Shown here in pieces: positions 38,777-62,600 of a stretch of 64,000 nt of DNA (position 1 is its first letter; every line of letters begins with the position of its first letter). The stretch comes from Frankia sp. AiPa1. Lineage in GTDB: Bacteria > Actinomycetota > Actinomycetes > Frankiales > Frankiaceae. Below the pieces are notes generated by a model. That model was not told the DNA's origin and made no database searches. It saw nothing but the letters and a program-made list of their open reading frames with translations. Position numbers and translations under genes: made by a program. The stretch lies in the NCBI RefSeq assembly GCF_023243075.1, contig NZ_JALKFZ020000140.1, positions 62,001-126,000 on the forward strand. The letters run 5' to 3'.

Positions 38777-40999
38777 ATGCGGGGGATCGGCTCAGGAGTG
38801 CGCAGAGTGTCAGGTGCGGTCGGCCGCTTCGTGCGCGCGCCGTTCCATACCATGGGCCAGTTCATGCTGTGGCTGTCCACGGCGAACCTGAGGGTGCTCG
38901 AACGGTTTCCGTCCGACCGGCCGAAATACGTCGGTCTCGGCAGCGCGGTGTTCATCACCTCGTCGATGGCGGCGATCTCCAGCGGTTTTGCCCTGCGGAT
39001 GGGCCTGAACCTGCCGATCCCGGCGTGCGCCGTTCTCGGGCTGCTCTGGGGCCTCGCCATCATGGGATTCGACCGGTGGCTACTGGCGACCGCGGGCCGT
39101 TCCAACATCTGGATGCTGTTGCCGCGTGCGGCGCTGGCTTTCCTCATCGGCCTCGTGGTCTCCACGCCGTTCGTGCTGCGCATCTTCCAGCCGGAGATCA
39201 TGCAGCAGGTCGCGCTGATCCAGGCCTCGGCGGCCACCAGCCAGCAGGAGAGCTGGAACGACCCGAGGAATCCGATCGTCAGCCAGATCAACCGGCTCAG
39301 CGGCGACATCGGTAGGCAGACGGTGCTCGTCAACACCAAGGGTGGCGCGACCGTCGAGAACGACCCGGCGGTGAGCTCGCTGGTGGCGAAGCTGAGCCCG
39401 GACGTCGACCCGATGAAGACCTACAACCGGCTCCAGCAGCAGATCAACTGCGAGGAGTCCGGCAGCACCAACTGCGGTGACGGCGTGGGCTCGGGCCGGC
39501 CGGGAGACGGTTTCCGAACCCAGCAGCTCAAGCAGCAGCGGGACGACTACTTCCAGAACTTCGTTCAGCCGCTGCAGACCCAGCTGGCCGCGGCCCGGAC
39601 AACCGCGGGGAACGCTCTTCCCGCCCGGCAGCAAAAGGCCGTGCAGGACGCCAAGGACCAGATCGCCGCTGACCAGAAGGAGCTTGCTCCGCTGCTCGTG
39701 AAGCGGGACCGACTGCGGCGCTCGTTCGACACGTCGAACACGGAGAACACCGGCCTGCTGATCCGTATGCAGGCCCTCGGCGACCTGACCAAGCACAACG
39801 CGACGATGCGCACCACGCACTACACGCTGCTGGCATTCATCACCGCGATCGACTGTCTGCCGATTCTGTTCAAACTGTTCATGCTGCTTGGGCGTAAGAA
39901 CAAATACGAGGAGGGCCTGGAGGCGGAGGAACGCGAGCACCTGGCGATCTCCCGGCAGTTCAGCCGCCGGCTGCGGGCCGAGCAGACGATCTACCAGACG
40001 GACACGCTGCGCGAGGCGCAGGCCGCCCGGGACGAGCGCGACGAGGCCATCGAGGAGCTGGCCCGCCGCACCGTGCGGGATCAGGTCGAGATCGCCGAGC
40101 GCACCCTCGACCGCTGGAAGCGCGAGGAGTTCGACCGGGTCGACCAGGACCCGAACTACCGCACCACCCGGCAGGTCCCCGCCCCGAACGTCCTGCCCGC
40201 CTACCAGCGTTCGGCCAGCGTCGACGAGGTGCTCGGCGCCCCGCCGCAGCGCTCGTGGCCGCCGACTGGACGCAGTCGGGACGAGCTGCGCCGGGCCCGT
40301 CGGGGCCCGGAGCGTCCCACCAGCGGTCGCGATGTCGACGCCGGCCGGAGCACCAGCGGCCGGGGCGCCGACACGGCGAGCTGGGACCTGGTGAACGGCC
40401 GACGCACCGCCTCCGGACATGATGTCGTCCCGGACCGGGACCGGGACCGGGATGGCCGGGGCCGGTCGGGCGACGCAGGCCAGGGCACGACTGTCTCGGA
40501 TCGTCGGGCGCAGGACGCGGAACCCTCGCGCCACCAGGATTCCCCAGGCCGGTACGAACGGTCGAGTGCCTCGAGTGTGCTGGGCTTCTCGGATCCAACC
40601 TGGCAGGACGCGGACGAGGCCACTGTGATCCCCTCCCGGTCGCCCTCCGACCCGCTGTTCGAACAGCCGGTCGGGCGCGGGCCAGCGGTGGGCGAGCCTA
40701 CCGACGGGTCCCGGGCCTATGCGGGCGGTGTGGCGGCGAACGGTCACGCCGAGCCCGCCGCCGCGGTCAACGGCGCCACGGCGCACGGTGGCGACGCACA
40801 CGGCGGCGGGACGCAGGACGGCCCCTCGTACGGCGGCTCCGCGTATGGCGGCCGCGCGAACAGCAGCCACGCGAGCGGCAGCGCGGTGTACGGCGCCGCC
40901 GAGGACGACACGGTGCACGGCGCCGCCAGGGACGGCGCGGTGGACGAGACCGTGCTCATACCGCCGCCCGGTGAGGAACCCGGCAGCGACCTGTGGTGA
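38777..40999 (+). CDS. DUF4407 membrane protein with long disordered tail
   Basis: The 740-residue protein has a DUF4407-like core: three early membrane helices (about 52-75, 80-97, 115-135) with the motif GFDRWLL between the second and third, a coiled-coil periplasmic/extracellular region (about 140-355; QTQLAAARTTAGNALPARQQKAVQDAKDQ), and a fourth helix (about 363-385). A cytosolic segment with charged coiled coil (ERDEAIEELARRTVRDQVEIAERTL) follows. The last about 270 residues are Ser/Gly/Arg-rich and end in the acidic motif DETVLIPPPGEEPGSDLW. The ATG at 38777 follows GGGGAG. It converges on the GTPase/tubulin operon 19 bp away and is likely part of that system. The biochemical function of the family is not established to my knowledge. 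Confidence 0.85.
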   Translation: MRGIGSGVRRVSGAVGRFVRAPFHTMGQFMLWLSTANLRVLERFPSDRPKYVGLGSAVFITSSMAAISSGFALRMGLNLPIPACAVLGLLWGLAIMGFDRWLLATAGRSNIWMLLPRAALAFLIGLVVSTPFVLRIFQPEIMQQVALIQASAATSQQESWNDPRNPIVSQINRLSGDIGRQTVLVNTKGGATVENDPAVSSLVAKLSPDVDPMKTYNRLQQQINCEESGSTNCGDGVGSGRPGDGFRTQQLKQQRDDYFQNFVQPLQTQLAAARTTAGNALPARQQKAVQDAKDQIAADQKELAPLLVKRDRLRRSFDTSNTENTGLLIRMQALGDLTKHNATMRTTHYTLLAFITAIDCLPILFKLFMLLGRKNKYEEGLEAEEREHLAISRQFSRRLRAEQTIYQTDTLREAQAARDERDEAIEELARRTVRDQVEIAERTLDRWKREEFDRVDQDPNYRTTRQVPAPNVLPAYQRSASVDEVLGAPPQRSWPPTGRSRDELRRARRGPERPTSGRDVDAGRSTSGRGADTASWDLVNGRRTASGHDVVPDRDRDRDGRGRSGDAGQGTTVSDRRAQDAEPSRHQDSPGRYERSSASSVLGFSDPTWQDADEATVIPSRSPSDPLFEQPVGRGPAVGEPTDGSRAYAGGVAANGHAEPAAAVNGATAHGGDAHGGGTQDGPSYGGSAYGGRANSSHASGSAVYGAAEDDTVHGAARDGAVDETVLIPPPGEEPGSDLW

Positions 41000-41018: not shown

Positions 41019-43373
41019 CTAATAGGTGCGGCGGGTGGTCGGCCCGTCGACGTAGGTCGTGAGCATGGCCGGCCAGGCCTGGAGCCACTTGTCGTCGACC
41101 CCGTGGCGGTAGCCGCCGGAGGCGCCCCGCTCGCTGACGAACACGTTCATGACGATCCGCAGTCTCGGCGGAATCCAGTGCACGGACTCGACCATCCAGG
41201 TCAGCAGCTCGAGGATGAGGTTCTTGGCCACCGGGTCGTACGGCCATCCGGTGCGCTCCAGCGAGGCCGCGAGGCCGTCCATCACCAGGCCGGCGAGACG
41301 GACCGCGCGGATGCCCCGGCCATATCTGTCCACCATGAGGTGGTAGGCGCCGAACATCGCCGAGCGATAGGCGCGCCGGTAGGAGGTGGTCATCCGGTCC
41401 CGCAGCGGCTCCACCGGCTCTGCGTCGAGCAGCAGGCAGGCGAAGTCGAGCCGGGCCTCCCCCTCCCCGTCGCCGCCGGAGGCCCGGTGCAGCTCCTCGG
41501 CCCAGCCGGCCTTCTCGGCCGGTGAGAGCGCGCGGGGGGTGACGGCCGCGGTGGTGAGCCAGGTCCACAGTGGCTCGGCCAGCGCCCGGCCCTGCCCGGT
41601 GAGCCGGGCGAGCCGGACCGCCGCCAGCGAGTAGCGGCTGTCCTGCCACAGATCCTGGCCCCTGGCGGCGAGCTCGTCGAAGTCCACCGCATCGTGCCGC
41701 CGGGCCAGCAGTCCGGTGAACGGACGTAGCGTCTCGCCCAGTGAGGGCGCGCTGGTCAGCCAGCCAAGCCAGCCTGCCGTGTGGGGGGCAGCCTCGATCG
41801 TGCCGGCCACGACCGGCCCGCGTCCGCCCGCTTCGAGGCGCAGGTCGTCCTCGACGGCGCGCCGGACAAGCTCCAGGGCGACGGCGGGCCCGCCGGGGTG
41901 CGCGGCCAGCTGTCCGAGCACCGCATCGTCGGCCAGGGCGCTCGACGGACCCGACAGCAGCCGGCGGCGGACCCGCTGGGCCCGGATCAGCGCCACGGTG
42001 TCCGAGACCAGCTCACGGGTGATCAGGCTCCGCTCGCCCGCGCCGCCCGCCGCCGCGCCGCCGACCGTCACCGCGCCGCCCGTCACAGCACGGGACGTGG
42101 ACGTCACGGCCGGTGTGGCACGGGACAGCCGCACGGGTGCGGTACCGAAGGGCGCCGCGGCAAGGTCGGCAGAGCCGGCGGCTACCGACGCCGCGGCCGG
42201 GTTGGACGCCGGGCCACTGGGCGCCGCGACGAGCAGGCGAGTGGTGAAGAACCTCGGACCGGGCAGGTCAGCCAGACTCAGCAGCGCGTGCTCCGGGTCG
42301 CCGAGGTGATGTCCTGGCCGGTAGGGCGCCTCGGCGAGATGCCGGATGATCTCCGCCGCGGGTATTTTCCGGCGCTCCCGCAACTCGAGGAGCAGCGCGA
42401 AGTACTCGGCGGCACCGTGGGGCAGCGGCGGTAGCCGGAAGCCCCGGCGCGGGCCGCCGAGGTGCACCGCGGCATCGCCTGGCCGAGCCCGATTGGTGAA
42501 GGCGAGCCGGATCCGATGTGTGCTGCCGGAATCCGCCCAGGTGCTCGCGACCAGCCGGGAACGCTGGCCGTACGGCAGCAGCGCGGCCACCGTGTCGAGG
42601 AACCACAACCGGTGGCGAAGTCTCGTCTGCGGGTCCGACGACGCCGGCCCGAGCAGTGCCACCGGCTGGCACAGCAGCAAGGCGGCGACGGCGGCCGCCT
42701 GCCGGAAGACGCCCCCGTCGGCGTTGAGCTCAGCGGCGTCCAGGCGCCGGGCGATCGCCTCGGCGTCGAATCCGGGCGAGAACTCCAGGGACAGCGACCC
42801 GCCCGGCGGCCGTCGCGGAGCGGATGCCGCTGTCGGCGGGAGCGCGGGCGGAGATGCCCCACCCGGTCGGGGCTCTGCTGGACGCGCGCCGCCGTGATCG
42901 GCCTCCAGCAGCGGCACCGGCCCGCCACGCTGGATGCCACGCGGCTGCGGCGTGAGCGCGGCGGCCAACGTCGCGTCGTCGCGCACCGTCCGGTACAGGC
43001 TCTGATAGCTCACGGGGACGGCGGCGAGACGCGCGAACGGTGCGCAGAGGTAGGTGGTCGCGGAGACCGGCCGGCCGGCGGCGTCGCTGCGGTTCGTCCA
43101 GGTGCACAGCGCGATTCCCAGCACGCTGCCGCTCCCCGCCGCGGACGCGGTACTGGGAGGAAGGGGGGCGTAGCTGATCGTGACCCAGGGCAGGGCGGCC
43201 GGGTCGGACTGCTGGGACGGGGTGGGCGGAGTGCCCGGGACGAACCGGCGCAGGATCGCGTCATAGTCGTCGCGGCTGAAGTAGGCGCCACCCGCGCGCA
43301 GCACCCGGTAGTCATCGGCACTGCCCGCGGTCTTGCTGTAGATCGCCCAGTCGGCCTCGATCCGCGTCGTCAC
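41019..43373 (-). CDS. GAP1-like (GTPase-associated) protein A
   Basis: The 784-residue cytosolic protein begins ADWAIYSKTAGSADDYRVLRAGGAYFSRDDYDAILRRFVPG, followed by a strand-rich region ending LPWVTISYAPLP. This opening resembles the type 2 N-terminal domain of GTPase-associated protein 1 (GAP1). A Pro/Ala linker (about 160-190) leads to a middle domain with many charged residues and helices, and a C-terminal helical domain. No enzyme motif is visible. The GTG at 43373 directly follows TAAGGA, so the ribosome site overlaps the start; the domain starts at once, which supports it. It is the last gene of the operon, 3 bp after the GTPase it probably works with. The family call is from memory and pattern; it would need a profile search. 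Confidence 0.55.
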   Translation of the reverse strand: MTTRIEADWAIYSKTAGSADDYRVLRAGGAYFSRDDYDAILRRFVPGTPPTPSQQSDPAALPWVTISYAPLPPSTASAAGSGSVLGIALCTWTNRSDAAGRPVSATTYLCAPFARLAAVPVSYQSLYRTVRDDATLAAALTPQPRGIQRGGPVPLLEADHGGARPAEPRPGGASPPALPPTAASAPRRPPGGSLSLEFSPGFDAEAIARRLDAAELNADGGVFRQAAAVAALLLCQPVALLGPASSDPQTRLRHRLWFLDTVAALLPYGQRSRLVASTWADSGSTHRIRLAFTNRARPGDAAVHLGGPRRGFRLPPLPHGAAEYFALLLELRERRKIPAAEIIRHLAEAPYRPGHHLGDPEHALLSLADLPGPRFFTTRLLVAAPSGPASNPAAASVAAGSADLAAAPFGTAPVRLSRATPAVTSTSRAVTGGAVTVGGAAAGGAGERSLITRELVSDTVALIRAQRVRRRLLSGPSSALADDAVLGQLAAHPGGPAVALELVRRAVEDDLRLEAGGRGPVVAGTIEAAPHTAGWLGWLTSAPSLGETLRPFTGLLARRHDAVDFDELAARGQDLWQDSRYSLAAVRLARLTGQGRALAEPLWTWLTTAAVTPRALSPAEKAGWAEELHRASGGDGEGEARLDFACLLLDAEPVEPLRDRMTTSYRRAYRSAMFGAYHLMVDRYGRGIRAVRLAGLVMDGLAASLERTGWPYDPVAKNLILELLTWMVESVHWIPPRLRIVMNVFVSERGASGGYRHGVDDKWLQAWPAMLTTYVDGPTTRRTY

Positions 43374-43376
43374 TCC

Positions 43377-45131
43377 TTACACTCCGCGGCCGTCGTCACG
43401 GCCACCGAAATCACCGCCGCCGCCACTGCCGTCGCCGCCACTACTATGACCGCCGCCGTAACCGTCGCCATCACCGTTGTCGAGGAACCAGCCAGGCCGA
43501 TACCCGTCGGGCTGGCTGCCCTCGACTCGGAAACCGCCCGGCGACGCCTCGTCCGGCCAGATCTCGTCCGCGGAGGTCTGACCCGGCGGGGCTGCGTCCG
43601 GCCAGGTGCTGGTCCGCGCATCGGGCTGGGCATGGGTCCGCACGTCACCGATCTCGAACTTCTGCAGGCGGACCGGCTCGCTGCGGTAGCCGTCGGTCCC
43701 GTCGCCGTCGCGATCGTCGGAGTGGCGGTCGCCGACGTTGGGCGAGCTGGCATACGGCGGGCTGCTATGGGGACGGACGGGGTCGAGCCGGAAGCCGCCG
43801 TCCGAGGGGTCGGCCGGGAACGCGTCCGGATCCAGGCCCGGAGCGGGAGAGGGGAGGGGGAGTGGGCCGGTGGTGGTGACGTCGTCGTCGCGGTGCCAGA
43901 GCGGGGGCGGGCCGTAGTCGGCGGGGGCGAACGCCTCGTCCTCGCTGCGGCGGGGAGTCCGCGGCGAGCGGAGCGCCGTGCGGCGGCTGGCGGGCCCGGC
44001 CTGGTCCTCGTCCTGCGGTCCCGGCTGCGCCGACGGCCCGTCGGACGTGATGGCCTCGGCGGCTGGCGGCGGGTCGGACCGGATCGACTCGACCAGCCAG
44101 AGGACTGGCTCGAGCACACCGGTAGGACGGACGTCGCCCCGGATACGGGTGCGGCCATCGACCTTTTCGACGTTCTCGAAGTCCTGGACGCGGAACATCC
44201 CGGTACGTCCGACGTAGAACCCGATCGACGAGCTGGCGAAGTACCGCACCCGGCCCGGATGGAAGTGCCGTTCGATGCTGCCGCGTACCTTCGGGCCGCT
44301 GCCGGCGTGGCGGCCCATCGTCTCCCGCGAGCACAGGTACTGGAAGAAGTCGGCGGCGTCCTCGCTGGTGACGACCGGCATCATCGCGTCGTCGTCGCCG
44401 GCGGAGACGAACCCGCCGTCGTAGGCCCGGTGGAACACCCGCCGGTCGTCGAGCTTGCTGATGCAGACCGCGAGGTAATGCGGCAGCTTCCCGTCGGGCA
44501 TCCGGCCGAGCTCGTCGGCACGTTGCAGCACCCGCTCGAGCATTGTCTCCAGGTACTGATAGGAATCCTGGTTGTCCAGCTCACGCACCGGGTCGAACAG
44601 GTAGACCAGGCCATCGGCCCGGGCAAGATGGTCGACGAGTTTCTCGACGGCGTCCCCGGCCTCCGACTCGTCCGCATAGAGGTCGGGATTGTCGCCCAGC
44701 ACGGTCGGGTTGTACATCTGACCGCTGACGTCCATCAGGGTGAGCTCGAACTCGGTTCGGAGCGGGGGACGGCGCGTCAGCCGTCGCAGCAGGCCGGAGC
44801 GCCGTGGCCGCATCATGCGCAGCGAGAGATCGCGAGCCTCGTAGAGATTGGCGGCCGGGAACTCCCGGCGGGCGATGTCACTGCGCGCCTTGGCCAGGAA
44901 GTCCGAGGTCCTCGTGTTCCCGGCGAACAGGATCCAGTCCTGTTTCTCGTCCTCGCCGCTCTGCTGGGTCATGGCGGCGTGCAGGGCGGCGAGCATCGTG
45001 GTCTTCCCACTGGTCTGCGCGCCCCACAGCCCGATTCGGCTGGCCATCCGGCTGTCGCCGCCCCGCCGCCGGGCCGGCCGCATCGGCACGTCCGGCCCGG
45101 GAGCCCCGGCGGGCCCAGCAGGCTCGGTCAT
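43377..45131 (-). CDS. TRAFAC-like P-loop GTPase A (double-GTPase type)
   Basis: The 584-residue protein has Walker A GAQTSGKT (37-44), the G3-like DVSG (134-137), and the G4-like SKLD (225-228), arranged as in small TRAFAC GTPases. GRTGMFRVQDFENVEKVDG and HFHPGRVRYFASSSIGFYVG later give a second, weakly GTPase-like half, in keeping with the 'double-GTPase' families. The C-terminal third is Pro/Gly/Asp-rich and disordered. The ATG at 45131 overlaps the previous gene's stop (TGATG), so translation is coupled. It is paired with the GAP1-like protein A. Cytosolic, with membrane partners on both sides in the operon. Confidence 0.8.
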   Translation of the reverse strand: MTEPAGPAGAPGPDVPMRPARRRGGDSRMASRIGLWGAQTSGKTTMLAALHAAMTQQSGEDEKQDWILFAGNTRTSDFLAKARSDIARREFPAANLYEARDLSLRMMRPRRSGLLRRLTRRPPLRTEFELTLMDVSGQMYNPTVLGDNPDLYADESEAGDAVEKLVDHLARADGLVYLFDPVRELDNQDSYQYLETMLERVLQRADELGRMPDGKLPHYLAVCISKLDDRRVFHRAYDGGFVSAGDDDAMMPVVTSEDAADFFQYLCSRETMGRHAGSGPKVRGSIERHFHPGRVRYFASSSIGFYVGRTGMFRVQDFENVEKVDGRTRIRGDVRPTGVLEPVLWLVESIRSDPPPAAEAITSDGPSAQPGPQDEDQAGPASRRTALRSPRTPRRSEDEAFAPADYGPPPLWHRDDDVTTTGPLPLPSPAPGLDPDAFPADPSDGGFRLDPVRPHSSPPYASSPNVGDRHSDDRDGDGTDGYRSEPVRLQKFEIGDVRTHAQPDARTSTWPDAAPPGQTSADEIWPDEASPGGFRVEGSQPDGYRPGWFLDNGDGDGYGGGHSSGGDGSGGGGDFGGRDDGRGV

Positions 45132-48100
45132 CAGCCCCCCGTCCCATACAGCGCTCTGTTCACCGCGGTGGCGAGGTCCGATGCTGGGGTTGGGGCCCCC
45201 GAAGCGGGTGTGCCGGGTGCGGTGTAGGCGACGATGACGAACGGGTCGTGCCCGTCGCTTTTCGGGGCCGTCCGTATGGACCAACTCCCGCCGCCGTCGG
45301 CCTGGACGTCGATGGCCTGGTTGATGCCGTTCCAGAACTGGGGCAGCGACCTGGACATGCCGGCGGTCTTCAGCACGCCCGCGAGATCACTCCCTTCCGT
45401 TCCGTTCTGGCCTGTTTTGCCCTGGTCGCTGTTCGCCGCGGGCCAGGGGGACGCGCCGTGCGGTGCCTGAGCCGCTGAGCTGTTCTGAGCACCGATGAGA
45501 AAGGGTATCGGCGCGGCCGCGGTGCCGGATTTGTTCTGGGTGAGGAGCGCGGCGAAGGTGGTGGCGAGCTGGATCGGGCTGATCCGCAGACACGCGGTTC
45601 CTCCGGTGCAGGCTGTGTCGGAGCTGCTCTGCTGTCCGGAGGCCTGTGCGGTGTAGGTGCCCAGGCCTTCGGCGCGCAGCGCGGCGCCGGCGGTCCTGGA
45701 AAGATCCCAGTTGTCGACCAGTGACCGGACGGCGGGATGCCCGGTGGTGGGCGTGCTGGCTTCGGGCTGGCCCTCGTCGTTGGTGGGCAGGATGAAACTG
45801 ACCAGCTGTGGTAGGGGGCACTTGTCGCCGTCGGCGAGTTTCATGGTGCCGCTGCCGGGTTGATCGATGGTGACGCAGTCCTTGAACTGGTCTTTGATGA
45901 TGTTGTCGACGGCGGTCAGGAGATCGTGGAGTCCGTGGTCGCCGGACAGAGGCTCGTGGATGGCCTGAGCGATCCGCTCCTGGTCCGCGGTGAGGTCCTT
46001 CGGCAGTTTGTCGCCGCTGTGGAGCAGTGTGTTGCGGCGCAGGTCGGCGAGCAGGGCAGAACCGAGGGCGGGGCTTCGGCCGAGGAGTTCCCGGACCAGG
46101 GACATGCCGACCGGCTGGGGGGTCCACCAGGTGGGCTGCGCGACTGGCGTCTCCGTGGCTGGCGTGGTGGGGCTGGTGGCGAGGGTGAGGAGCCGGCCGT
46201 CGCTGGCGTCGAGCGCGACGACCACCCCGTTCGTGCCTGCCGGGAGAGTTCGCAGGGCGTGGTCCGCGGCGTTCTGGGCGGCGGCGGCGAGGGTGTACAC
46301 CAGGTGGGAGGGCGGGCAGCCTGGCCCCAGGCCGGCGCCAGGGACACTGCCTGAGGCTATCGCTGGGCAGCGTCGCGTCGCGGCGATCGTTCTGGCGTCC
46401 GTGGCAGACGTCAGTTTCTTGATTACTTCCTGGGTGGCGCCGTCGAGGCCGACGGTCGTACTGGTCAGGACCCGAGCGGGACGCACCTGGTTGGCCACCT
46501 CGACGGCATGCCTGTCGTCCTTGTCGAAAAGATTGCGGTCGTGGGCGGCGTGATCGGCGGACACCACAACGGCCGCCGCCATGGCTATGATGCACAGTCC
46601 CGCGATCAGCGGAGTCCGTGCTGGTCCCGCGAGGATGGCCCGCAGGTGTCCGCCGAAGGAATCGGCCGGCGCAGTGGTGGGCCGCCTAATGGCGGGCGCG
46701 CGGGTCTCGGCTACCCGGCTGGCCGCGCCGAGCAGCGCGCCGACGGTCCACAGCAGGGCGATGAGACCGACCCCGTCGGGGGCGATGCCCGGCAGTGCCA
46801 CGTCGACGTCGTAGTCCGGCCAGACCAGCGGGAGCGTGGGAATCGCGAGCGTGACCAGGGTCGCGGCAGCCAGGCCCTGTGCCCAGGCGCCGAGTTCCCC
46901 ACACCCGCAGCGGGCCGCGAGCCGCGTGAGGAAAAGGCCGGTCAGAACCACGGTGGCCAGGACCAGCAGGATACCGGCTGTGCCGAGTTCCTCGGCGACC
47001 ACGTTCAGCGCGTAATGGCCCGGCGCCCTGCCGGATGCGTAGGACTCGACCAGACCCTGTCCTGGTCCGCTGCCGGCGGCTCCGGCGCGCGCCAGCGCAT
47101 GGGCGGCGTATCCGGAAGGCTGTCCCTCGGGCCGATAGGGATTGTGGACGATGTTCCCGTTGACCCACGCGTACACCGCATACACCGCGAGGACCGCGAC
47201 CAGGCCGAGCGCCGGGATCCAGCGTCTGCCGGTGCTCGAGGCGATGAGCCAGGCCATGCCGACCGCGGCGGCCAGGGCCTGCGCCGGTTGGCCAGGCCCG
47301 AGGGCGGCGACCAGCGCGATGCTGATGACGATGGAGCACGTCGTCAGGTACGCGGCGACGTCGGTCGGGCTGTGGTGGGCGTACCACCGCCTCCACAGCG
47401 TGATGAGCAGGGCGACGGCGGCGACAGCCAGTGCCGGGAGCAGCGCGGCGGGCTGGATCCGTTCTGTGCCCAGCACGAACGTGGAGCCGCCGAAGTGGTT
47501 GATCGTGCAGACGAGGGCGACCGCCGGGAGGGCTCCGACGAGCATGATCCCGAGCGGATCAAGGGTCTCCCGCCGACGCGCGGTGGCCCCGATGAGCCGC
47601 CCGCGCGGCATGGTCCGCACCAGCACGGCGAGGGCGAGCAGCCCCGCACTGCCAAGACCGAGTGACACGGCGAGCCCGACAAGCGGGAACCGGGTGCTTC
47701 CCGGCAGGCCCGACATACGCAGCCGCACCAGCACGCCGAAGGCGACGAGTAGGTAGACGGCGCCGACCAGCGGCACCGCCAGCCGGGCCAGCGGGCCGAA
47801 CGACCGAGGTCGCCGGGCTGACGGACGGTCCGCGACGACGACGACGCCCTGCAGCGTGATCCATCCGGCGAGCCCAATGATCAGTGCCACGGGAAGCGGG
47901 CTGGGAACGCTCAGGTCGGGCCGGTGGTGGCGTAGCCCGACGACGAGAATCCAGGCGGTCAGCGTCGGCAGGTACGCCAGCAGACCGGTGCGTGCCCAGG
48001 TCCAAGGGTCTCGCAGGGTGGACCAGACATCGATGGGGACGTCGTCGGCCGCAAGGGGCCGCTCCGGTCGGGGTACCCAGCCGCCGCTGCCCACGTCAGG

Positions 48101-48142
48101 AGCGGATACGGCCCCGGGGGCGTTCGGGGGCTGTGGAGTCAC
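45131..48142 (-). CDS. SEDS (FtsW/RodA)-like membrane domain fused to a degenerate penicillin-binding-like domain
   Basis: The 1003-residue protein starts with about ten membrane helices (45-475). GQGLVESYASGRAPGHYALNVVAEELGTAG (361-390) and ALPGIAPDGVGLIALLW (449-465) match the SEDS peptidoglycan-polymerase signatures, with substitutions. A signal-anchor-like helix at 512-530 leads to an extracytoplasmic region. There, NGVVVALDASDGRLLTLATSP (638-658) and LRISPIQLATTFAALL (about 866-881) match flanking motifs of class B penicillin-binding proteins, and GKTG appears near 930. The Ser-x-x-Lys nucleophile motif is missing from its expected place (QPTWWTPQPVGMSLV) and no SxN was found. The GTG at 48142 overlaps the previous stop (GTGA). 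So this is a SEDS/PBP fusion that is probably inactive as a transpeptidase and could be a sensor of wall synthesis. Confidence 0.75.
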   Translation of the reverse strand: MTPQPPNAPGAVSAPDVGSGGWVPRPERPLAADDVPIDVWSTLRDPWTWARTGLLAYLPTLTAWILVVGLRHHRPDLSVPSPLPVALIIGLAGWITLQGVVVVADRPSARRPRSFGPLARLAVPLVGAVYLLVAFGVLVRLRMSGLPGSTRFPLVGLAVSLGLGSAGLLALAVLVRTMPRGRLIGATARRRETLDPLGIMLVGALPAVALVCTINHFGGSTFVLGTERIQPAALLPALAVAAVALLITLWRRWYAHHSPTDVAAYLTTCSIVISIALVAALGPGQPAQALAAAVGMAWLIASSTGRRWIPALGLVAVLAVYAVYAWVNGNIVHNPYRPEGQPSGYAAHALARAGAAGSGPGQGLVESYASGRAPGHYALNVVAEELGTAGILLVLATVVLTGLFLTRLAARCGCGELGAWAQGLAAATLVTLAIPTLPLVWPDYDVDVALPGIAPDGVGLIALLWTVGALLGAASRVAETRAPAIRRPTTAPADSFGGHLRAILAGPARTPLIAGLCIIAMAAAVVVSADHAAHDRNLFDKDDRHAVEVANQVRPARVLTSTTVGLDGATQEVIKKLTSATDARTIAATRRCPAIASGSVPGAGLGPGCPPSHLVYTLAAAAQNAADHALRTLPAGTNGVVVALDASDGRLLTLATSPTTPATETPVAQPTWWTPQPVGMSLVRELLGRSPALGSALLADLRRNTLLHSGDKLPKDLTADQERIAQAIHEPLSGDHGLHDLLTAVDNIIKDQFKDCVTIDQPGSGTMKLADGDKCPLPQLVSFILPTNDEGQPEASTPTTGHPAVRSLVDNWDLSRTAGAALRAEGLGTYTAQASGQQSSSDTACTGGTACLRISPIQLATTFAALLTQNKSGTAAAPIPFLIGAQNSSAAQAPHGASPWPAANSDQGKTGQNGTEGSDLAGVLKTAGMSRSLPQFWNGINQAIDVQADGGGSWSIRTAPKSDGHDPFVIVAYTAPGTPASGAPTPASDLATAVNRALYGTGG

Positions 48143-49632
48143 GCGTGCCCACCGAGGCTGACAAGGAAGAGCAGGACGAAAACGCCGACCACGGCGCCGA
48201 GGACCCACATGTCGCGCCGCCAACGCGCGGCGAGCTCTTCCGGCGTGGCTTCGATGCCCTGGCCACGCCGCTGCGCGGCGACGGGCGTGGGTATCCGGGT
48301 CGGGCCGGTCTCGGCCGCCCCACCCGGGACCCGTGTCGGGAGACCACGGGCGGGAGTGCCGGGGGATTCTCCGGCGCCCGGATTTCCCCCGGGCAGCGGT
48401 GCGAGCTGAGGCTGGCCGGCTGGCCAGCGATCGGTCGTCTCCTGTGGGGGCCGGACGGGTGACTGCGCCATTCGGCGCGCGGCGGCCTCGAGCTTGACTC
48501 GCAGGTCCTCGTTTTGCTGTGCGAGCTGGGTCTGTGTATCCACGCGTTCCTTGAGCTGAGCCTCGAGCCGCCGCGCGCGCATGGCCTGATCATCGCGTTC
48601 ATCGGTCAGCGTGTCGATCTGGTTTTCCAGCGTCTCGCGTTCGTCGAGTATTTCGTCGAGCTCTCGCTGTTTCAGGTCGAGGATGGTGCGGGCGTTTTCG
48701 CGTTCCTGGTTCAGAACCTTGTTGTGTTCTTCGCCGAGTCTGCGTGTGATGGTGGCTTCGTCGCTGGTGGGGGTGAAGCCCTGTGCCCAGGTGAGGAGGC
48801 TTTCGCGGCTGGTGATGCCGGCGTCTCTGAGGAGTTGTGACCAGGCGGCGGCGTCGTGCGAGTTGGTGTAGGCGCGCACGAGGTTGGCGGCGGTGATGAG
48901 GTGGGGTGCCTCTGCCGGGTAGGTGGCGAGGTTGACGTGGTTCTCGGAGTGGATGCGGCCTTCGGGGAGCATGAAGGTGATGTGGATGCCGCCGTTTTGT
49001 TCGGGGTCTCCGGTGGAGAAGGTCCAGTCGGGGCTGACCCATTCGCGGAGTATTTCGCGGGCGGCGATGAGCAGGTGGACGGGGTGGGAGCGGTGGGGGG
49101 TGACCGCGAGTGGTCGGTCGCGGGCCTCGATGAGGGCGACGATGAGGCGGGTGAGTTCTTCCTCGTGTTCGATTGCTCGGGCGCCGCCGAGTCGGTCGCG
49201 GTTGCGTTCGAGGTTGAGATGGCCTTCGGCCTCGTCGACGAGGTGCTGGCGGTCGAGGACGTGCAGTTCTGGGGGCGGTCCGCCGTTCCACCAGCCTGGC
49301 CAGCCAGCGAACAGGCCGAGGGCGAGGCCGGCGCCGACCTTGGGTTTGTGGCCGATGAGGACGTGGGCGGCGGAGGCGGGTCGCCCGGAACTCGCGTCGT
49401 AGAAGCGGCGGATCACCATCCCGCGGCCGTCCGGGGCGTCGGCGAAGCACAGGGTGGATTTCGACTCCGCGTCCTGATGCCGGTAGGGAGCATCGGCGAG
49501 CGACGTCAGCGCAGGGCTGGCCAGCGCGCTGTCGGTCTCCGGCAGAGTGCTGACGACCGCGCGGAAACCGTTGGTCCGCGTGTCGTACAGCATGATCGCC
49601 TGGTGGACCCACCGCGGGTCATTGCCGTCCAT
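48139..49632 (-). CDS. GAP1-like protein B with coiled coil and C-terminal membrane anchor
   Basis: The 497-residue protein begins VHQAIMLYDTRTNGFRAVVSTLPETDS, resembling the type 1 N-terminal domain of GTPase-associated protein 1. A helical middle region is followed by a long coiled coil (about 300-400; QRELDEILDERETLENQIDTLTDERDDQAMRARRLEAQLKERV), a Pro/Gly linker, and a single C-terminal helix (WVLGAVVGVFVLLFLVSLGG), so it is tail-anchored with its bulk in the cytosol. It is downstream of GTPase B with 7 bp between, and the next gene overlaps its stop by 4 bp. Compared with neighbours it uses more GAA and AAA codons in the coiled coil. The family call rests on the opening motif only. Confidence 0.55.
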   Translation of the reverse strand: MDGNDPRWVHQAIMLYDTRTNGFRAVVSTLPETDSALASPALTSLADAPYRHQDAESKSTLCFADAPDGRGMVIRRFYDASSGRPASAAHVLIGHKPKVGAGLALGLFAGWPGWWNGGPPPELHVLDRQHLVDEAEGHLNLERNRDRLGGARAIEHEEELTRLIVALIEARDRPLAVTPHRSHPVHLLIAAREILREWVSPDWTFSTGDPEQNGGIHITFMLPEGRIHSENHVNLATYPAEAPHLITAANLVRAYTNSHDAAAWSQLLRDAGITSRESLLTWAQGFTPTSDEATITRRLGEEHNKVLNQERENARTILDLKQRELDEILDERETLENQIDTLTDERDDQAMRARRLEAQLKERVDTQTQLAQQNEDLRVKLEAAARRMAQSPVRPPQETTDRWPAGQPQLAPLPGGNPGAGESPGTPARGLPTRVPGGAAETGPTRIPTPVAAQRRGQGIEATPEELAARWRRDMWVLGAVVGVFVLLFLVSLGGHA

Positions 49633-49639
49633 CGGACCG

Positions 49640-50773
49640 TCAGCCCCCCCGTACGTACTGCACGTCGCGCTCCCCGATCATGGCCAGGAGGGCCACGAGC
49701 GGTTCCAGGACCCGGCGCGGGCGCGCCGGCCGAACAAACCTGCCCGGGGGCGCCTCCTCGCCGGGACCGGCGGGGCCGGACCTGACGGCGGACGACCCGC
49801 TGGCCGAGACGAAGTGCAGCGTGCACCACTGGAACTGGTCCACCGGCGCGAGCCAGGCGGTGGCCCGACGTTGGTGCAGGAACGCGTAGGCATCCTGGCT
49901 CTCCTGGCGGAACAGGAAGCGGTCGACGGCACTGGGCACCGGACGGCTCAGCCAGCGGTCGACCGGCGGGGTGAAACGCAGCCGGTCCGACTTGGTGATC
50001 GCCAGCGCGGCCGGGATGAGCAGGCGGCCATCCTTCTTGTCCCGGAAACGCAGCCCGGCGACGGTGGCGCTGTAGGTCGGGTCGTCCAGGGTGGTGGCGT
50101 CCGACAACTCGTCGTCCTCGACGCCGTCCCGGCTGTCCTCGCCGCCGATCTTCGTCGGGTCGACCACGAAGATCAGACCGTCGACCCGGTGCAGAAAGCG
50201 CAACGCCATCGCGTGTTTCTGCAGGCCCAGCAGCTGCTCGCCGGCGGCGTCGAAGAAGACCAGCGGGAACGTGAGCCCGGCGCCCGTGGTCAGCAGCACC
50301 GCGTCCGCGTAGGAGACCAGCGCGGCGTTGCGGGTGTGCGGGGGGGCGATGCCCTTCTCGAAGAACGGGTCGACCACGTTGGACCGGTAGGTGTTGTGCT
50401 CGGTCAGGTTCACCGGCATGGTGCGCAGGCCGCGCGGGCCGAGCCGCTGCCGGTCGATCTCGCCGGACATCGCGGCCAGCAGGCAGGTCTTGCCGGCCCG
50501 GGAAGCCCCGACGAAACCGATCACGATCGGTCGTTCGTGCAGGACGAAGTCCACCGGGAAGTAGTGCGGCACGCGGTTGATCTCGTTCGGGCAGCGCAGG
50601 ACCGCGCCCTGGATCTCCGGCGCCCACCGCGCGCTGGTCCGGGGCGGCAGAGTGACGTGGGACGGGGGGCCGTTGTCGTCGCGACGGTAGGCCTCACGGC
50701 CGTTCCAGTCGAACTCCTCCAGACAGATCACGCAGGTGACCTTCTGCTTTCCCGCGGTGTCGGTCACGGTCAC
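49640..50773 (-). CDS. TRAFAC-like P-loop GTPase B with N-terminal zinc-type cysteines
   Basis: The 377-residue protein has a short Cys-rich head (CVIC at 14-17, RCPN at 60-63), probably a zinc ribbon, then a GTPase domain: Walker A GASRAGKT (89-96), DAAGE (175-179, G3-like), ITKSDR (259-264, G4-like). A late segment LEPLVALLAMIGE resembles a closing helix. The GTG at 50773 follows GGAGGT at seven bases. It lies 5 bp after the pseudokinase gene and 7 bp before the GAP1-like protein B, with which it probably pairs. It differs from GTPase A in having the zinc head and lacking the long disordered tail. No catalytic effector domain is present. Confidence 0.82.
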   Translation of the reverse strand: MTVTDTAGKQKVTCVICLEEFDWNGREAYRRDDNGPPSHVTLPPRTSARWAPEIQGAVLRCPNEINRVPHYFPVDFVLHERPIVIGFVGASRAGKTCLLAAMSGEIDRQRLGPRGLRTMPVNLTEHNTYRSNVVDPFFEKGIAPPHTRNAALVSYADAVLLTTGAGLTFPLVFFDAAGEQLLGLQKHAMALRFLHRVDGLIFVVDPTKIGGEDSRDGVEDDELSDATTLDDPTYSATVAGLRFRDKKDGRLLIPAALAITKSDRLRFTPPVDRWLSRPVPSAVDRFLFRQESQDAYAFLHQRRATAWLAPVDQFQWCTLHFVSASGSSAVRSGPAGPGEEAPPGRFVRPARPRRVLEPLVALLAMIGERDVQYVRGG

Positions 50774-50778
50774 GGCGC

Positions 50779-51903
50779 TCACCTCCGATCCCGTCGGCGG
50801 ATGCGGGGCAGCCGAGCGGACGGCGATCCGTCCGTGGGCGGCGGCTGGGTGGGAGTTTCGGGGTCGGTCAGCCCGGCCGCGCCACCGGGATTGGTCGGCC
50901 GGGTCGGGGTGATGCGTCCGATCGTGGGCTGCTCCGCGGTCGGATGGACACGCGGGGACGGGGGAGCCGCCAGCCCCTGGCCCTTGGCGATCATAAGCTG
51001 CTCGAACGCCCGGCGTCCCTCGGCCAGTGGATCCGGCTCCGAGCGGGGCAGTTCGTCCTGGGTGAGGACCACGCCGAGCCGACGCAGTACCTGCTCGGCG
51101 CTCGGGCGGCCAGGCAACGGGTCGAAGACGCCGTGCAGGATCTGCCCGAGCCAGGGGATGTTGCTCGCGGCGATGTCGGGATTGCCGCCCGGGCCGATGT
51201 GCAGCCGGTTGGGCGTCACGCTCAGCAGGGCGCATCCGGCGCTGTACAGGTCGTCGCGGGCGTCGATGACGCCGCCGCCGAGGATCTGCTCGGGTGGTGC
51301 CCACTCGCGGGGGGTCCGCTCGGCCGGGGTGGCGACCTGGGCCAGGCGCGTGCGCGGCTCCCCGATGAGCCGGGCGTACTCGAACCGGTTGATCTGCAGC
51401 GTCCGGCTGGGAGAGTGCCAGTACAGCGTGTTGGCCCGCAGCTGCCGGTGGGAGATCCCGAGGTGTTCCAGCAGGACGAGCCCGCGGATCAGGCCCCGGG
51501 CGAACTCCTGCTGGTCGTCCGGCGAGGACAGCGGGACGGGCAGTCTGTCGACCGGCACGCCCCACTCGACGGTGACCGCGAACGGCCGCCTCTGGTCCAC
51601 GTCGTAGCCGAACAGCTGGGAGAGGTGCCACGGGTAGCGGGACCCGGACCCGTCCCATGGCAGGCGCCGGTCGGCGTCGAAGCGGCGCAGCATCCGCAGT
51701 CCGGTGGCGATGGCGTTCTCCAGGGCGAGCTCGGCGCTCTCCCCGCCCACCGCATAGCGGATCGCGAGCTGGTAGTCGCGGTACCGGCCACGCTTGGTGA
51801 CGAAGTTCCTGGTCTCATCGGTCGCGTCGGAATCCATCTCGACCTGCCAGACGACCGTCCCCCCGCCTGGCCGATGGAACCGCAGCTCCTCGACGTCACC
51901 CAC
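50779..51903 (-). CDS. Protein pseudokinase
   Basis: The 374-residue product resembles the C-lobe of a Ser/Thr protein kinase without the catalytic residues. HRQLRANTLYW (152-162) corresponds to the catalytic loop HRDLKxxN, with the Asp replaced by Gln; INRFEYARL (171-179) replaces DFG; the APE-like PPEQ (203-206) and DDLYSAGC (217-224) that anchor the lobe remain. A Gly-rich ATP loop and an active Lys are not obvious. It probably acts as a scaffold or ligand-sensing pseudokinase. The Pro/Thr-rich tail (about 320-374) is disordered. The GTG at 51903 overlaps the preceding gene by 8 bp and has GGAGGGG upstream. A larger in-frame extension would be disordered. Confidence 0.72.
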   Translation of the reverse strand: MGDVEELRFHRPGGGTVVWQVEMDSDATDETRNFVTKRGRYRDYQLAIRYAVGGESAELALENAIATGLRMLRRFDADRRLPWDGSGSRYPWHLSQLFGYDVDQRRPFAVTVEWGVPVDRLPVPLSSPDDQQEFARGLIRGLVLLEHLGISHRQLRANTLYWHSPSRTLQINRFEYARLIGEPRTRLAQVATPAERTPREWAPPEQILGGGVIDARDDLYSAGCALLSVTPNRLHIGPGGNPDIAASNIPWLGQILHGVFDPLPGRPSAEQVLRRLGVVLTQDELPRSEPDPLAEGRRAFEQLMIAKGQGLAAPPSPRVHPTAEQPTIGRITPTRPTNPGGAAGLTDPETPTQPPPTDGSPSARLPRIRRRDRR

Positions 51904-52504
51904 TGCCTGGACCCCTCCACGGCGGTTTCTCTCCCCCGGTGTCCGCGCCGCCGGTGGGCCTCGGCGGACGGAACCCGTCTGGACGCCCGGCGGCACCAGT
52001 GCCGGGGCTGCCCGGCCCGCCGCCCAAACCGGGCAGGCCCGGCTGGCCGCGCTGGTAGTTCGGCGAACCTGGCCGGTTCCCGGCCCGCGGACCGGCCTTG
52101 CCTGCTGGCCCGGCCTTGTCTGCTGGCCTGGGCTGGCCTGCTGGCCTGGGCTGGCCGACCGGGCCGGCGTTGCTGACCCGTCCGGGGGCGGCGGTACGGC
52201 TCGTGGGGACGGTGCGGTTCGTGGGGGCGGTGCGGTTCGTGGGGGCGGTGCGGTTCGTGGGGGTGGCGCGGTTCGGATCGCCGGGCCGGCGTCCAGCGGT
52301 GCCGGTCCCACCGCGGCCCGGACGCAGGGGAAGCTCGAGACCCGGCGCGTCGCCCGCCCGCTGACGGGTGAGTGGGCGCCCGGACTGTGACCCGCCGGAC
52401 CGTGACCAGCCGGCCCGTGGCCATGCGGCCCGTGGCCACGCCGTGTAGACCAGCAGGCCCAGACCGGCCAGACCCGAGAGGAGGATCAGAACCTGGAAGA
52501 TCAC
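51896..52504 (-). CDS. Small single-helix membrane protein with repeat tail
   Basis: The 202-residue product has one N-terminal helix (MIFQVLILLSGLAGLGLLVYTAW) followed by a disordered Arg/Pro/Gly-rich cytosolic tail. The tail contains about five (Ala-Pro-Thr-Asn-Arg-Thr) units encoded by an 18-bp repeat. The GTG at 52504 overlaps the previous stop by 4 bp (GTGA), which is the best evidence that it is translated. No homologue was recognised. A role as a membrane adaptor in the operon is a guess. Confidence 0.55.
   Translation of the reverse strand: MIFQVLILLSGLAGLGLLVYTAWPRAAWPRAGWSRSGGSQSGRPLTRQRAGDAPGLELPLRPGRGGTGTAGRRPGDPNRATPTNRTAPTNRTAPTNRTVPTSRTAAPGRVSNAGPVGQPRPAGQPRPADKAGPAGKAGPRAGNRPGSPNYQRGQPGLPGLGGGPGSPGTGAAGRPDGFRPPRPTGGADTGGEKPPWRGPGSG
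52202..52273 (-). repeat. Four 18-bp tandem repeats in the small membrane protein gene
   Basis: The unit CGTGGGGGCGGTGCGGTT occurs four times, the first with one base change and the last with two. On the coding strand it gives the repeated hexapeptide. The repeat is in frame, so unit gain or loss would change tail length only. Confidence 0.88.
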
Positions 52505-55500
52505 CAGAGATCATCCTCCTCGTCCACGGTGCGGTCCGCCCGCGCCGAGGTCTGCTCGCTTCCCGGCGGCGCAGCGTCCGCGACGGGCGACGGCGGCGTG
52601 GGCAGGGCCGGCCGGCCGTCGTGTGCCGCTGTGGGGAGCGGTGCCGTTGAGGGGAACGGCGCCGTGGAGGGAGGCTGTGCCGCGGACGGGACCTGTGCCG
52701 GTGGGACGGGTCCCCACGGAGGTACCGGTGCCGCGAACCGCGGGAGTTCCGAGGTGGGCAGGTGATTGGTGGGCGGGGCCGCCCCGGGCACAGGCTCCGT
52801 GGACGGGGCGGTCCCGCCCAGCGAGGCCGCTGGCGCAGTGGGGTTCGGCGGCGCGGCGGGGATCGGCGGTGGGTTTCGGGCCGGCGCCGGCCTGGGCGGC
52901 GCGGGAATATCGGCCGTCGGAGGGGCGTCGCCCGCGGGCCCTGTCGCCACCGGCGGCTCGGTGCCGGCCGGAGATCCCTTGCCGACTGAAAACTCCGTGC
53001 CGACTGGAGATGCGTTGCCGACTGGAGATTCCGGGCCGGCCGGGGATTCCGGGCTGAAGGGGTCGTGGTGGCTTGTCTCGCCGGACCAGACGTCGTCGGC
53101 GACGGAACGCCGTGCCTCACCCGGTGTTTCCCGTGGCGCCGGCTCGGACGCCGCGGGTGTTGCCCCGCGCGCGTCGGCGGACCCGGCCTGGGCGAGTGCG
53201 GGGGACGGGTCGTTGTTGCCCGTCGACGCCGGGCCGGACGCGACCGCATCGGGCCCGGCGGCCTCAGGCCCGCCGTCACCGGGCTCGGCGGGATGGGTGG
53301 GCGGCGAGGTGGCCCCGGCGCGTGACAGTGCGGACGGGGAGCTCGCGCGTGTTGCGGACCTGGGGTTCAGCTCGGTCAGCCGGATGATGCCGGCGATGTC
53401 GGGGGAGCCGGTGCCCTCGTCCAGGCCGGGGTCGGCGATGCTCGGGATGAACCGCACGAACGGTGCCGTGTCCGGGGTCTGGTTGAGCAGCCGCAGGTCC
53501 TCCTCGTTGGTGAGCTGCAGCAGGTCCGGGAAGCTGGCGGTGGCCCGACGCAGCCGGCCGAGCTCCTGGGAGTTCAGCCAGACCCGGCGGGCGAGTTCGG
53601 TGCGTCGGCCCAGGTCCGCCTCGAACGGCGGCGGCGCCAGCGGCCCGCGCCGCTCCAGGTGCTCGTCGTAGGCGGCGAGCAGGGTGCGCAGATTGTTCTG
53701 GACGTCCCGGTCGATGTCGTCGCGACGCATCCCGGCGATCTCGTAGCCGTGCTCGTTGAGCACGGTGCGGATGGCGGCGGCGACGTCGTCGGTGACGATC
53801 TCGGCGAGTGCGCCGCGGTTGGCCAGCAGCTGCCGGCCCACCGCGGAGCCGACGCCGAGGGTCGAACCGTCGCCCGGCAGGCCTGCGGCGGGGAAGGCCG
53901 GCCCGCCGCCGGGCGGTCCGAAACCGCCTGGATGCCCCGGCCCGCCCAGCGGTCCGTACCCGCCGGGTATGCCGGTGCGGCCGGCTGGGCCGACAGTGGC
54001 GGACGGGCCGGCCGGGCCGAAACCGCGTGGGCCGGCGGGGGCTGGGCGCAGCCCGGCGAGGGTCGCCTCGGCGGCGTCGACCGCGTCGGCGACGGCGCTG
54101 GCCAGACGCGCCCCGCCGAGCCGGGCCTCGGCCAGCACCCACTCGTTGAGACCGACCGAGACCAGCAGCGCGCCGAGGCCCCCGACGGCGGCCTTCGCGT
54201 CACCGAGTCGCAGCCGGCTCTGCCAGGTGGACACCGCCCGGCGCCACCAGATCAGTGGCGCGAACGCCAGCGCCAGTCCTGCCAGCAGCAGCACCACGCC
54301 GATCGCCGTCCCGAGCCTGGGCAGGCCCGCGCCGCCCGCGATGCCGGCGATGCCGCCGATCAGCGCGTCCAGCCCGTACCAGACGAGGGCGCTGCGCGGC
54401 ATGTCCCGCGGGTCGCCGGGCTGACGAGGCTGGGGGATCGGCCGGCGCTGGTAGAGCCGTACGGCGAGCCCGACGGTGAGCAGCAGGGCGAGCAGCGCAC
54501 CGATGATCCCGATCGGGAACCAGAGTCCGGCGAGCAGCGTGCCCAGGAAGGCGGTGGACAGCATGCCGGGATGCAGCCAGCGCGGGAACAGCGGCGGCGT
54601 CCGCAGCGCCGCGACGAGCTGCGGCGGGCAGATCTGGCCGACCTGGTCGGCCCGGGGTGTGCTGCCGGCGGGACGGGCGCGTCCGGCGAGGTCGCGCAGC
54701 CAGCGGGCGGTGGCGGCCAGTGGCTCGCGGTGGTCGAGCGCCGCATCGGTCTGCTGGCGTAGCGCCTGGCGCACCGCGGCGGGCGCCGCCGCTTCCACGG
54801 GCACCATGGAGACGCCGAGGACGGCGAGGGCCTGCCGCTGCTGCGGGCCGATGCCCTCGTGGCCGCCGATGTCACGCAGCGCCGTGTGCAGCCGCTCGGC
54901 GAACTGGCCCAGCTGTTCGCCGGCCGCGACGATCTCCGTCCACACGAGGGAGCCGGCGGGGACCGGGCCCTGGCCGGTGACCTGACGGCGGCGCCCGAAC
55001 GGCTCCTCGCGCAGCGCTGCGAGCAGAGTCTCAGCCCTGGTGAGATGCGCGAGCGCGCCCCGGGCGGCCGTGGGCAGCTGGCCGGCGTCGTTGATGATGG
55101 TTCCGACCCCGGCGTCGTTTTCGGTCGCGGCGCCGGTGAGCAGACGGTCGATCTTGAGCGCTTCCTCGGGCAGGGCCGTGCGGACCCCGCCCGGGTGCGC
55201 CGAACCGCCGACGGGCCCCGAGCCGCCGAGCAGCCCCGAGCCGCCAGCCAGGCCGGGCCCGCCGGACAGGGCGCCGGTGTCGGGCTGGGTGAAGTGGCCG
55301 AACGCGTGGCCGGCGGCCTCGTCGAGAATCTCGCGGCTCACCCGGCCGAGCAGCAGGTGGATCGCGGGCGCCGCGGCCTGGTGGTTGCAGCCCAGCACCT
55401 CGGTGCGCACTCGGCTGAACACACTGGGGATGCCGAGCGCCTGCAGCAGCGCGGCGAGGTTGGGTTCGGCGTCCTCGTCGGGGCCGAGTATCCGCCCGGT

Positions 55501-55923
55501 GCGACCGGGGCTCCAGCGCAGGCCGCGCAGGTCACCGACCCAGAGCACGGGCAGCTCGGAGACGGGCGGCAGGTAGAGCCGGTCACTGTCCGGGCGCGCG
55601 CCGAGTGCCAGGACCAGCAGTTGCGTGACCGACGCCGACCCGGACAGGCGGACGAGCAGCTCCCGGTACTCGTCCAGCCGCTCCACGTCGCTGACGACCA
55701 GCACCCGTCCGGTGTCCACGCCGCGACGGCCCAGCCGGCCCGCGAACTCGCGCTGGAGTGCGCCGATCGAGGTGGACAGCACCCGGCGCGGGTCGTCGCG
55801 CAGGTCGAGGACGACCACCGCGCCGTCGTCGTCCTGGCGGCTCGGATAGCCACTCCCGGCGCGGCCTGCGCCGCCGGAGCCGCCGGAGCTCCCGGAGCTG
55901 GGCGGGCCCAGGTGAGTCGTCAT
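52501..55923 (-). CDS. Large membrane protein of the tubulin/GTPase operon
   Basis: The 1140-residue protein starts with a Gly/Ser linker and a Rossmann-like alpha/beta segment (about 34-130; GAVVVLDLRDDPRRVLS, TGRVLVVSDVERLDEYRELLVRL, VTQLLVLALG). A helical region leads to four membrane helices (about 454-476, 471-489, 518-535, 537-558). A second soluble helical region (about 565-880) includes DDVAAAIRTVLNEHGYEIAGMRRDDI. The last 250 residues are Pro/Ala/Gly-rich and end TVDEEDDLW, an acidic tail like that of the DUF4407 protein. The ATG at 55923 overlaps the tubulin gene's stop (ATGA). No catalytic motif was identified. It may form the membrane hub of the complex. Confidence 0.6.
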   Translation of the reverse strand: MTTHLGPPSSGSSGGSGGAGRAGSGYPSRQDDDGAVVVLDLRDDPRRVLSTSIGALQREFAGRLGRRGVDTGRVLVVSDVERLDEYRELLVRLSGSASVTQLLVLALGARPDSDRLYLPPVSELPVLWVGDLRGLRWSPGRTGRILGPDEDAEPNLAALLQALGIPSVFSRVRTEVLGCNHQAAAPAIHLLLGRVSREILDEAAGHAFGHFTQPDTGALSGGPGLAGGSGLLGGSGPVGGSAHPGGVRTALPEEALKIDRLLTGAATENDAGVGTIINDAGQLPTAARGALAHLTRAETLLAALREEPFGRRRQVTGQGPVPAGSLVWTEIVAAGEQLGQFAERLHTALRDIGGHEGIGPQQRQALAVLGVSMVPVEAAAPAAVRQALRQQTDAALDHREPLAATARWLRDLAGRARPAGSTPRADQVGQICPPQLVAALRTPPLFPRWLHPGMLSTAFLGTLLAGLWFPIGIIGALLALLLTVGLAVRLYQRRPIPQPRQPGDPRDMPRSALVWYGLDALIGGIAGIAGGAGLPRLGTAIGVVLLLAGLALAFAPLIWWRRAVSTWQSRLRLGDAKAAVGGLGALLVSVGLNEWVLAEARLGGARLASAVADAVDAAEATLAGLRPAPAGPRGFGPAGPSATVGPAGRTGIPGGYGPLGGPGHPGGFGPPGGGPAFPAAGLPGDGSTLGVGSAVGRQLLANRGALAEIVTDDVAAAIRTVLNEHGYEIAGMRRDDIDRDVQNNLRTLLAAYDEHLERRGPLAPPPFEADLGRRTELARRVWLNSQELGRLRRATASFPDLLQLTNEEDLRLLNQTPDTAPFVRFIPSIADPGLDEGTGSPDIAGIIRLTELNPRSATRASSPSALSRAGATSPPTHPAEPGDGGPEAAGPDAVASGPASTGNNDPSPALAQAGSADARGATPAASEPAPRETPGEARRSVADDVWSGETSHHDPFSPESPAGPESPVGNASPVGTEFSVGKGSPAGTEPPVATGPAGDAPPTADIPAPPRPAPARNPPPIPAAPPNPTAPAASLGGTAPSTEPVPGAAPPTNHLPTSELPRFAAPVPPWGPVPPAQVPSAAQPPSTAPFPSTAPLPTAAHDGRPALPTPPSPVADAAPPGSEQTSARADRTVDEEDDLW

Positions 55924-62028: not shown

Positions 62029-62600
62029 GTATGTGTGGCCTCCCCCAAGGCTCACGCAGCGCCCGACCCCCCAGGTGCCAGGTCGCTCATGCGCTCACGA
62101 GCCGACCGCGGGATACCCACCGAAACACGTCCCGGTGCGGCACGGCGAGGTATGGCAGCGCACGGACGCAAGATACACCGTGTTCTGTCGTGTTGCGTGC
62201 GTCGATGGGCCAACTTGTCGGCCACTTTTGACGATCATGCTGCATCGCAGTGGGTTCAGTCTGTCCCATGACCCCCTGTCGCGGAAATTCATGCAGGTCA
62301 GAGGCCATATTTTGCTTGCCGTCAGAATGGCGGTCGGAGTTGTCCGACCAACGTACGGACATGTACCGGTAACGGGTGGCCGGTCGCCGTTGGGAAGGCT
62401 GTGGCGGCCGGTCAGGGCAACCGGCGACTGTCGCGACAACGTCGTGGCTCGACGTCGTGGCTCGACCGGTTCCACGGCCGCGGATGACAAGTCAGAATGT
62501 CGTTGCCGCGTCGGCGCAATTCCTCGGCCTGCGCACGGCATAGGGCGTCGTCCTACGCCGTCTCCCGGCCCCGGCCCCCGCGAACAACCTCCCGCCGTGC
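62029..62600. other. Intergenic region upstream of the vWA-tubulin operon
   Basis: No gene was recognised in these 572 bp. A perfect 6-bp inverted repeat, TGTCCG (62341-62346) and CGGACA (62356-62361) with a 9-bp spacer, and a 13-bp direct repeat ACGTCGTGGCTCG (62439-62451 and 62452-62464) are the main structures. A less G+C-rich stretch at about 62290-62330 (CATATTTTGCTTGC) may hold the operon promoter, but I could not choose -35 and -10 boxes confidently. Confidence 0.45.

Follow-up and report, generated by a model that had tools for sequence, protein, structure and literature searches.

The window, by which we mean the whole 64,000-nucleotide stretch of Frankia sp. AiPa1 DNA analysed, carries an operon on its minus strand. 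The genes run in the order vWA, tubulin, hydrophobic protein, pseudokinase, DO-GTPase A, GAP1-N2-like protein, fusion, DO-GTPase B and GAP1-like protein, with a DUF4407 gene on the opposite strand:

59155-62055, minus strand: vWA-domain protein (Pfam VWA_2, E 4e-5, under the cut-off)
55920-59099, minus strand: tubulin homologue (Pfam Tubulin_2, PF13809, E 2.8e-61)
52501-55923, minus strand: large protein with hydrophobic segments, kept in relatives
50779-52311, minus strand: pseudokinase (HRD changed to HRQ, DFG to NRF)
49640-50773, minus strand: DO-GTPase A (Pfam DO-GTPase2, PF19993, E 4e-8, over the cut-off; start codon uncertain)
48139-49632, minus strand: GAP1-N2-like protein with a C-terminal TM helix, overlapping the fusion gene
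45131-48142, minus strand: SEDS-class B PBP fusion, 1003 aa, predicted to be catalytically dead in both halves
46706-48031, minus strand: SEDS-like (RodA/FtsW) membrane domain of the fusion, with His376 (about 47015-47017) at the position of the Asp of FtsW D297/RodA D262
45134-46648, minus strand: single TM helix and extracytoplasmic pseudo-transpeptidase domain of the fusion
43377-45131, minus strand: DO-GTPase B (Pfam DO-GTPase2, E 5.6e-5, under the cut-off)
41019-43373, minus strand: second GAP1-like protein, adjoining GTPase B in relatives too (weak assignment; one homologue has a GAP1-M match, E 0.013)
38777-40999, plus strand: DUF4407 protein (E 9.5e-68), in convergent orientation with respect to the operon

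This gene order is kept in relatives up to the ends of their contigs, and the DUF4407 gene adjoins the operon also at loci L019, L022 and L095. The GAP1-N2-like protein gave no direct Pfam match; it is related by BLAST (2.8e-6) to a protein of L091 that itself matches GAP1-N2 at 6.5e-7. The C-terminal TM helix of GAP1 was seen in the tubulin-type and G019 members examined. Among the ten proteins scanned with Pfam, none matched FNIII repeats. The kinase-like protein has lost the HRD aspartate and the DFG motif in all nine aligned homologues and represents a second pseudoenzyme of the operon.

The fusion gene translates without interruption into a single polypeptide. Its GTG start overlaps the stop codon of the upstream GAP1-N2-like gene as GTGA, and its own stop codon shares one base with the ATG of DO-GTPase B. 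A query with the single protein over the genome contigs found no relatives of the fusion, and the search for relatives on plasmids also found none; a profile scan of the contigs identified four Frankia records (Frankia sp. R82, Frankia sp. AgB32, F. canadensis and F. nepalensis). The dead-fusion family as analysed here comprises seven members, namely that of the window and six relatives from Frankia and a sister genus, the C-half of the F. canadensis member being interrupted by a contig end. Weak matches in other families proved to be ordinary PbpA proteins and were rejected as relatives of the fusion.

Divergence between members is highest at third codon positions, lower at first and lowest at second positions. 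Many residues are invariant, including a PxG turn, and six cysteines, which likely form three disulfides, are invariant across the six complete C-halves. In two draft relatives the gene shows a frame break (L021, G006) or a run of Ns (L022, G021), both probably assembly faults. These two cases are what could be said for a decaying pseudogene or an assembly artefact in the window. We rejected that explanation as hardly credible, given that open frames, the codon-position pattern, the invariant residues and the GTGA junction are all conserved across independent genomes.

The N-terminal half is related to RodA and FtsW. It carries the EELG and PGIAPDG motifs on which the earlier note had based its recognition of SEDS-like helices. 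The Pfam family FTSW_RODA_SPOVE matches it at E 0.0024, under the cut-off, and the family profile searched against the PDB matched E. coli RodA (E 0.004). An AF2 model (mean pLDDT 58) matched RodA/FtsW structures at E 2e-6 to 1e-4, the match at E 2e-6 being RodA from T. thermophilus. Fold and sequence together establish that the homology is real. We then aligned the SEDS halves with E. coli RodA and FtsW and with the three SEDS proteins of the host itself. The catalytic aspartate (FtsW D297/RodA D262; residue roles according to PMC8765783 and PMC10449877) is lost in all seven members, being replaced by histidine in the window, arginine in five relatives and threonine in one. Residues W138, E150, K153, Y379 and G380 are likewise replaced in every member that has the position. 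The SEDS half thus looks dead too, as judged from its residues. This loss goes beyond what the earlier note had seen, and a loss confined to the PBP half was rejected, the SEDS aspartate being gone as well.

The C-terminal half is derived from a PBP. A profile of the family C-halves matches actinobacterial PbpA proteins, and the strand and helix order of the AF2 model agrees with that of a transpeptidase. With this model, 50 of the 50 matches listed by Foldseek were PBP or beta-lactamase folds, none of them reaching E 1e-3; the model itself is weak (pLDDT 48) and too poor for mapping a ligand site. The description of this region as a penicillin-binding-like outer domain was borne out. The serine position of the SxxK motif is occupied by Met680 in the window (about 46103-46105), right after the PxG turn, and across the seven members the position reads M, E, D, A, D, D and G. 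The lysine is lost in 7/7, so that both residues of the dyad are consistently missing from the alignment, and the SxN motif, already noticed as absent from the window together with SxxK, is missing along with KTGT in every member whose sequence covers the region. The pedestal region is much shortened. Because the serine is lost in all seven members, sensing of beta-lactams by acylation, one of the roles that the earlier note had raised, is essentially excluded; with neither serine nor lysine present in any member, we rejected covalent sensing. Read at the sequence level, the locus thus encodes a SEDS-PBP fusion with both active sites apparently lost, in a conserved ORF with a defined slot in the operon, and the earlier view of a fused, dead pair inside a GTPase operon was correct, the neighbours being two DO-GTPases, GAP1-like proteins and a tubulin homologue.

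A retained enzymatic activity with a different chemistry or substrate is beyond what sequence alone can exclude, and conservation persists at some positions close to the lost sites. We nevertheless consider it highly improbable, as no conserved replacement is seen at the positions of the Ser, the Lys, the SEDS Asp, SxN or KTGT, where residues differ freely from member to member. The host genome encodes three full SEDS proteins, and the contig of each also carries a full class B PBP close by. Because of these three complete pairs elsewhere, the fusion is not the housekeeping synthase, and a role as stand-in for absent housekeeping synthases was rejected.

The same operon slot is occupied by different variants in three genomes (G019, G022 and G014) that belong to the taxonomic family of the host and to other genera. 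In G019, a SEDS-PBP fusion (L045, 8883-11789, minus strand) stands directly after GTPase A and GAP1. It retains SxxK, SxN, KTGT and the SEDS aspartate intact, and its SEDS half is already without W138 and Y379. In G022, a highly diverged SEDS remnant (L092, 13175-14449, plus strand) follows GAP1, without a PBP half; further GAP1-like and cell-surface-like ORFs come after it. In G014 (L101, 4980-8594, minus strand), the GAP1-N2-like protein is extended by a dead PBP domain, joined to it by a single TM helix; this domain has PGELTA at the SxxK site and matches Pfam Transpeptidase at E 7e-4; no SEDS part is present. We read ten neighbourhoods around DO-GTPase matches and eight around tubulin matches for SEDS and PBP genes, and only the G022 remnant and the GAP1-fused dead PBP of G014 added anything. 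The GTGA overlap between the GAP1 and SEDS genes is identical in all eight loci examined.

In the SEDS tree the slot members grouped against canonical SEDS proteins at 100/100, a value to be read with a warning for long branches. The PBP tree, where branches are long as well, grouped G014 among the dead forms, and G019 fell in with canonical PBPs (96/94). Two features link G019 to the dead forms and are missing from the canonical class B PBPs that were aligned: two cysteines ahead of the TLDxxAQ strand, where G019 and F. nepalensis alike read ALGRRC, and one cysteine ahead of SPIQLA/TPLQMA. We read these common cysteines as a sign of common descent; G019 and the dead forms probably derive from one functional-looking fusion, and their independent capture is less likely.

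Among the 21 genomes of the family scored for both features, the dead fusion occurs in five of seven with tubulin and in none of the 14 without it (Fisher p 0.001, with kinship ignored). A search of the G019 genome for tubulin gave no match; since this genome has an intact fusion, the fusion does not depend on tubulin as a partner. In another actinobacterial genus with large genomes, three tubulin operons (Streptomyces-type) contain no SEDS or PBP gene.

We propose that the GTPase system took up a fused wall synthase, which lost its catalysis and now serves at the membrane as a receptor or scaffold, a model to which we give about an even chance of being correct. The ancestor would have been a peptidoglycan synthase in which SEDS and class B PBP were already fused; it would have come to stand beside GAP1 in a membrane DO-GTPase system, and catalysis would then have been lost from both halves. 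A wall component may be engaged, without chemistry, by the outer pseudo-transpeptidase domain and perhaps also by the SEDS cavity, candidate partners being stem peptides, lipid II or the wall synthases of the cell itself. The membrane part may relay this state, or tether it, to GAP1 with its TM anchor, and through GAP1 to the GTPases; tubulin and the pseudokinase would be cytoplasmic partners. Of these steps, we infer ligand binding, signalling and direct contact between the fusion and GAP1.

The model is favoured because the catalytic residues are lost in 7/7 members while PxG, the six cysteines and other residues are invariant, and because operon order and the overlap with GAP1 are conserved (8/8 loci). 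The dead PBP joined to GAP1 in G014 and the intact fusion in the G019 slot also speak for it, as do the co-occurrence with tubulin and the possession by the host of its own three pairs. It is weakened by the tubulin-less G019, by the Streptomyces-type tubulin operons without a fusion, by the low confidence of the structure models and by the long branches of the trees. A non-covalent sensor or scaffold role is plausible in place of the acylation that was essentially excluded, and it gains support from the single-helix linkage of the dead PBP domain to GAP1 in G014.

The receptor or scaffold model competes chiefly with two others, a dominant-negative role and a passive anchor. In the first, the dead synthase would act as an effector or decoy: by pairing with or sequestering lipid II, RodA/FtsW or class B PBPs, it would stop wall growth once the GTPase system fires. 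In E. coli, FtsW variants without catalytic activity exert a dominant-negative effect (PMC8765783), and the host offers three target pairs; however, the SEDS residues lining the lipid II site are replaced, and the slot retains only the PBP part, on GAP1, in G014 and only the SEDS part in G022, so neither half is always needed. We regard this role, which includes the decoy raised by the earlier note, as possible yet unlikely. The same holds for a passive anchor that would hold a tubulin/GTPase complex at membrane and wall without sensing: the tubulin neighbour and its co-occurrence with the fusion, together with the many other TM proteins of GAP1/DO-GTPase systems, are consistent with it, but GAP1 has a TM anchor of its own, G019 carries its fusion without tubulin, and a large ectodomain with conserved cysteines exceeds the needs of an anchor.

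A more specific form of the receptor or scaffold model, which we advance tentatively as somewhat short of probable, is that an entire peptidoglycan synthase, polymerase and cross-linker together, turned into a dead receptor reporting the state of the wall through the membrane to a GTPase/tubulin switch, and that living, half-decayed and fully dead versions persist in related genera. If true, a GTPase system proposed to be immune-like would have taken over a central wall-building machine as a non-catalytic part, and the steps from active enzyme to dead receptor would be kept among related species. The locus would offer a concrete handle on what GAP1/DO-GTPase systems sense, and a natural, doubly dead SEDS-PBP pair with which structural and catalytic roles could be dissected.

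SEDS-PBP fusions and GAP1/DO-GTPase systems are already known. What appears new, going by the sequences, is that a system of this kind includes a doubly dead SEDS-PBP whose slot is filled, in relatives, by intact or partly degraded forms, a combination that we did not find described; our search of the open-access literature on inactive SEDS/PBP proteins returned no described case. Of natural SEDS-PBP fusions we know of no dead one and, apart from the G019 relative with its intact motifs, of none tied to a GAP1/DO-GTPase operon.

The Frankia operon fits the tubulin theme of actinobacterial GAP1-N2 systems (PMC7159879; Kaur et al, 2020). It shares with them two DO-GTPases, a single tubulin with a C-terminal extension, a vWA membrane protein and probably also the GAP1-N2-like protein. 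As described, these systems are without a SEDS-PBP component, unlike the Frankia operon; FtsW, penicillin and transpeptidase are nowhere mentioned in that work (PMC7159879), which reports other peptidoglycan-binding domains on GAP1-N2 systems and in which their role in biological conflict is a prediction. The statement of the earlier note that SEDS proteins and PBPs are normally separate partners stands as a general rule, with the qualification that natural fusions of both in a single ORF, as in Frankia, have already been reported (PMC10449877), and the fusion itself is therefore not the novelty.

Compared with RodA-PBP2 and FtsW-FtsI, the fusion has the same layout, a TM helix and a transpeptidase-type ectodomain coming after the SEDS fold, but as one polypeptide, with both active sites lost and the pedestal much shortened. 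BlaR1 and MecR1, which sense beta-lactams by acylation of an intact serine, resemble the fusion in carrying an ectodomain of the penicillin-recognising fold on a membrane protein; the fusion differs from them in having neither the serine nor the lysine and in having a GTPase/GAP1 module as its putative partner.
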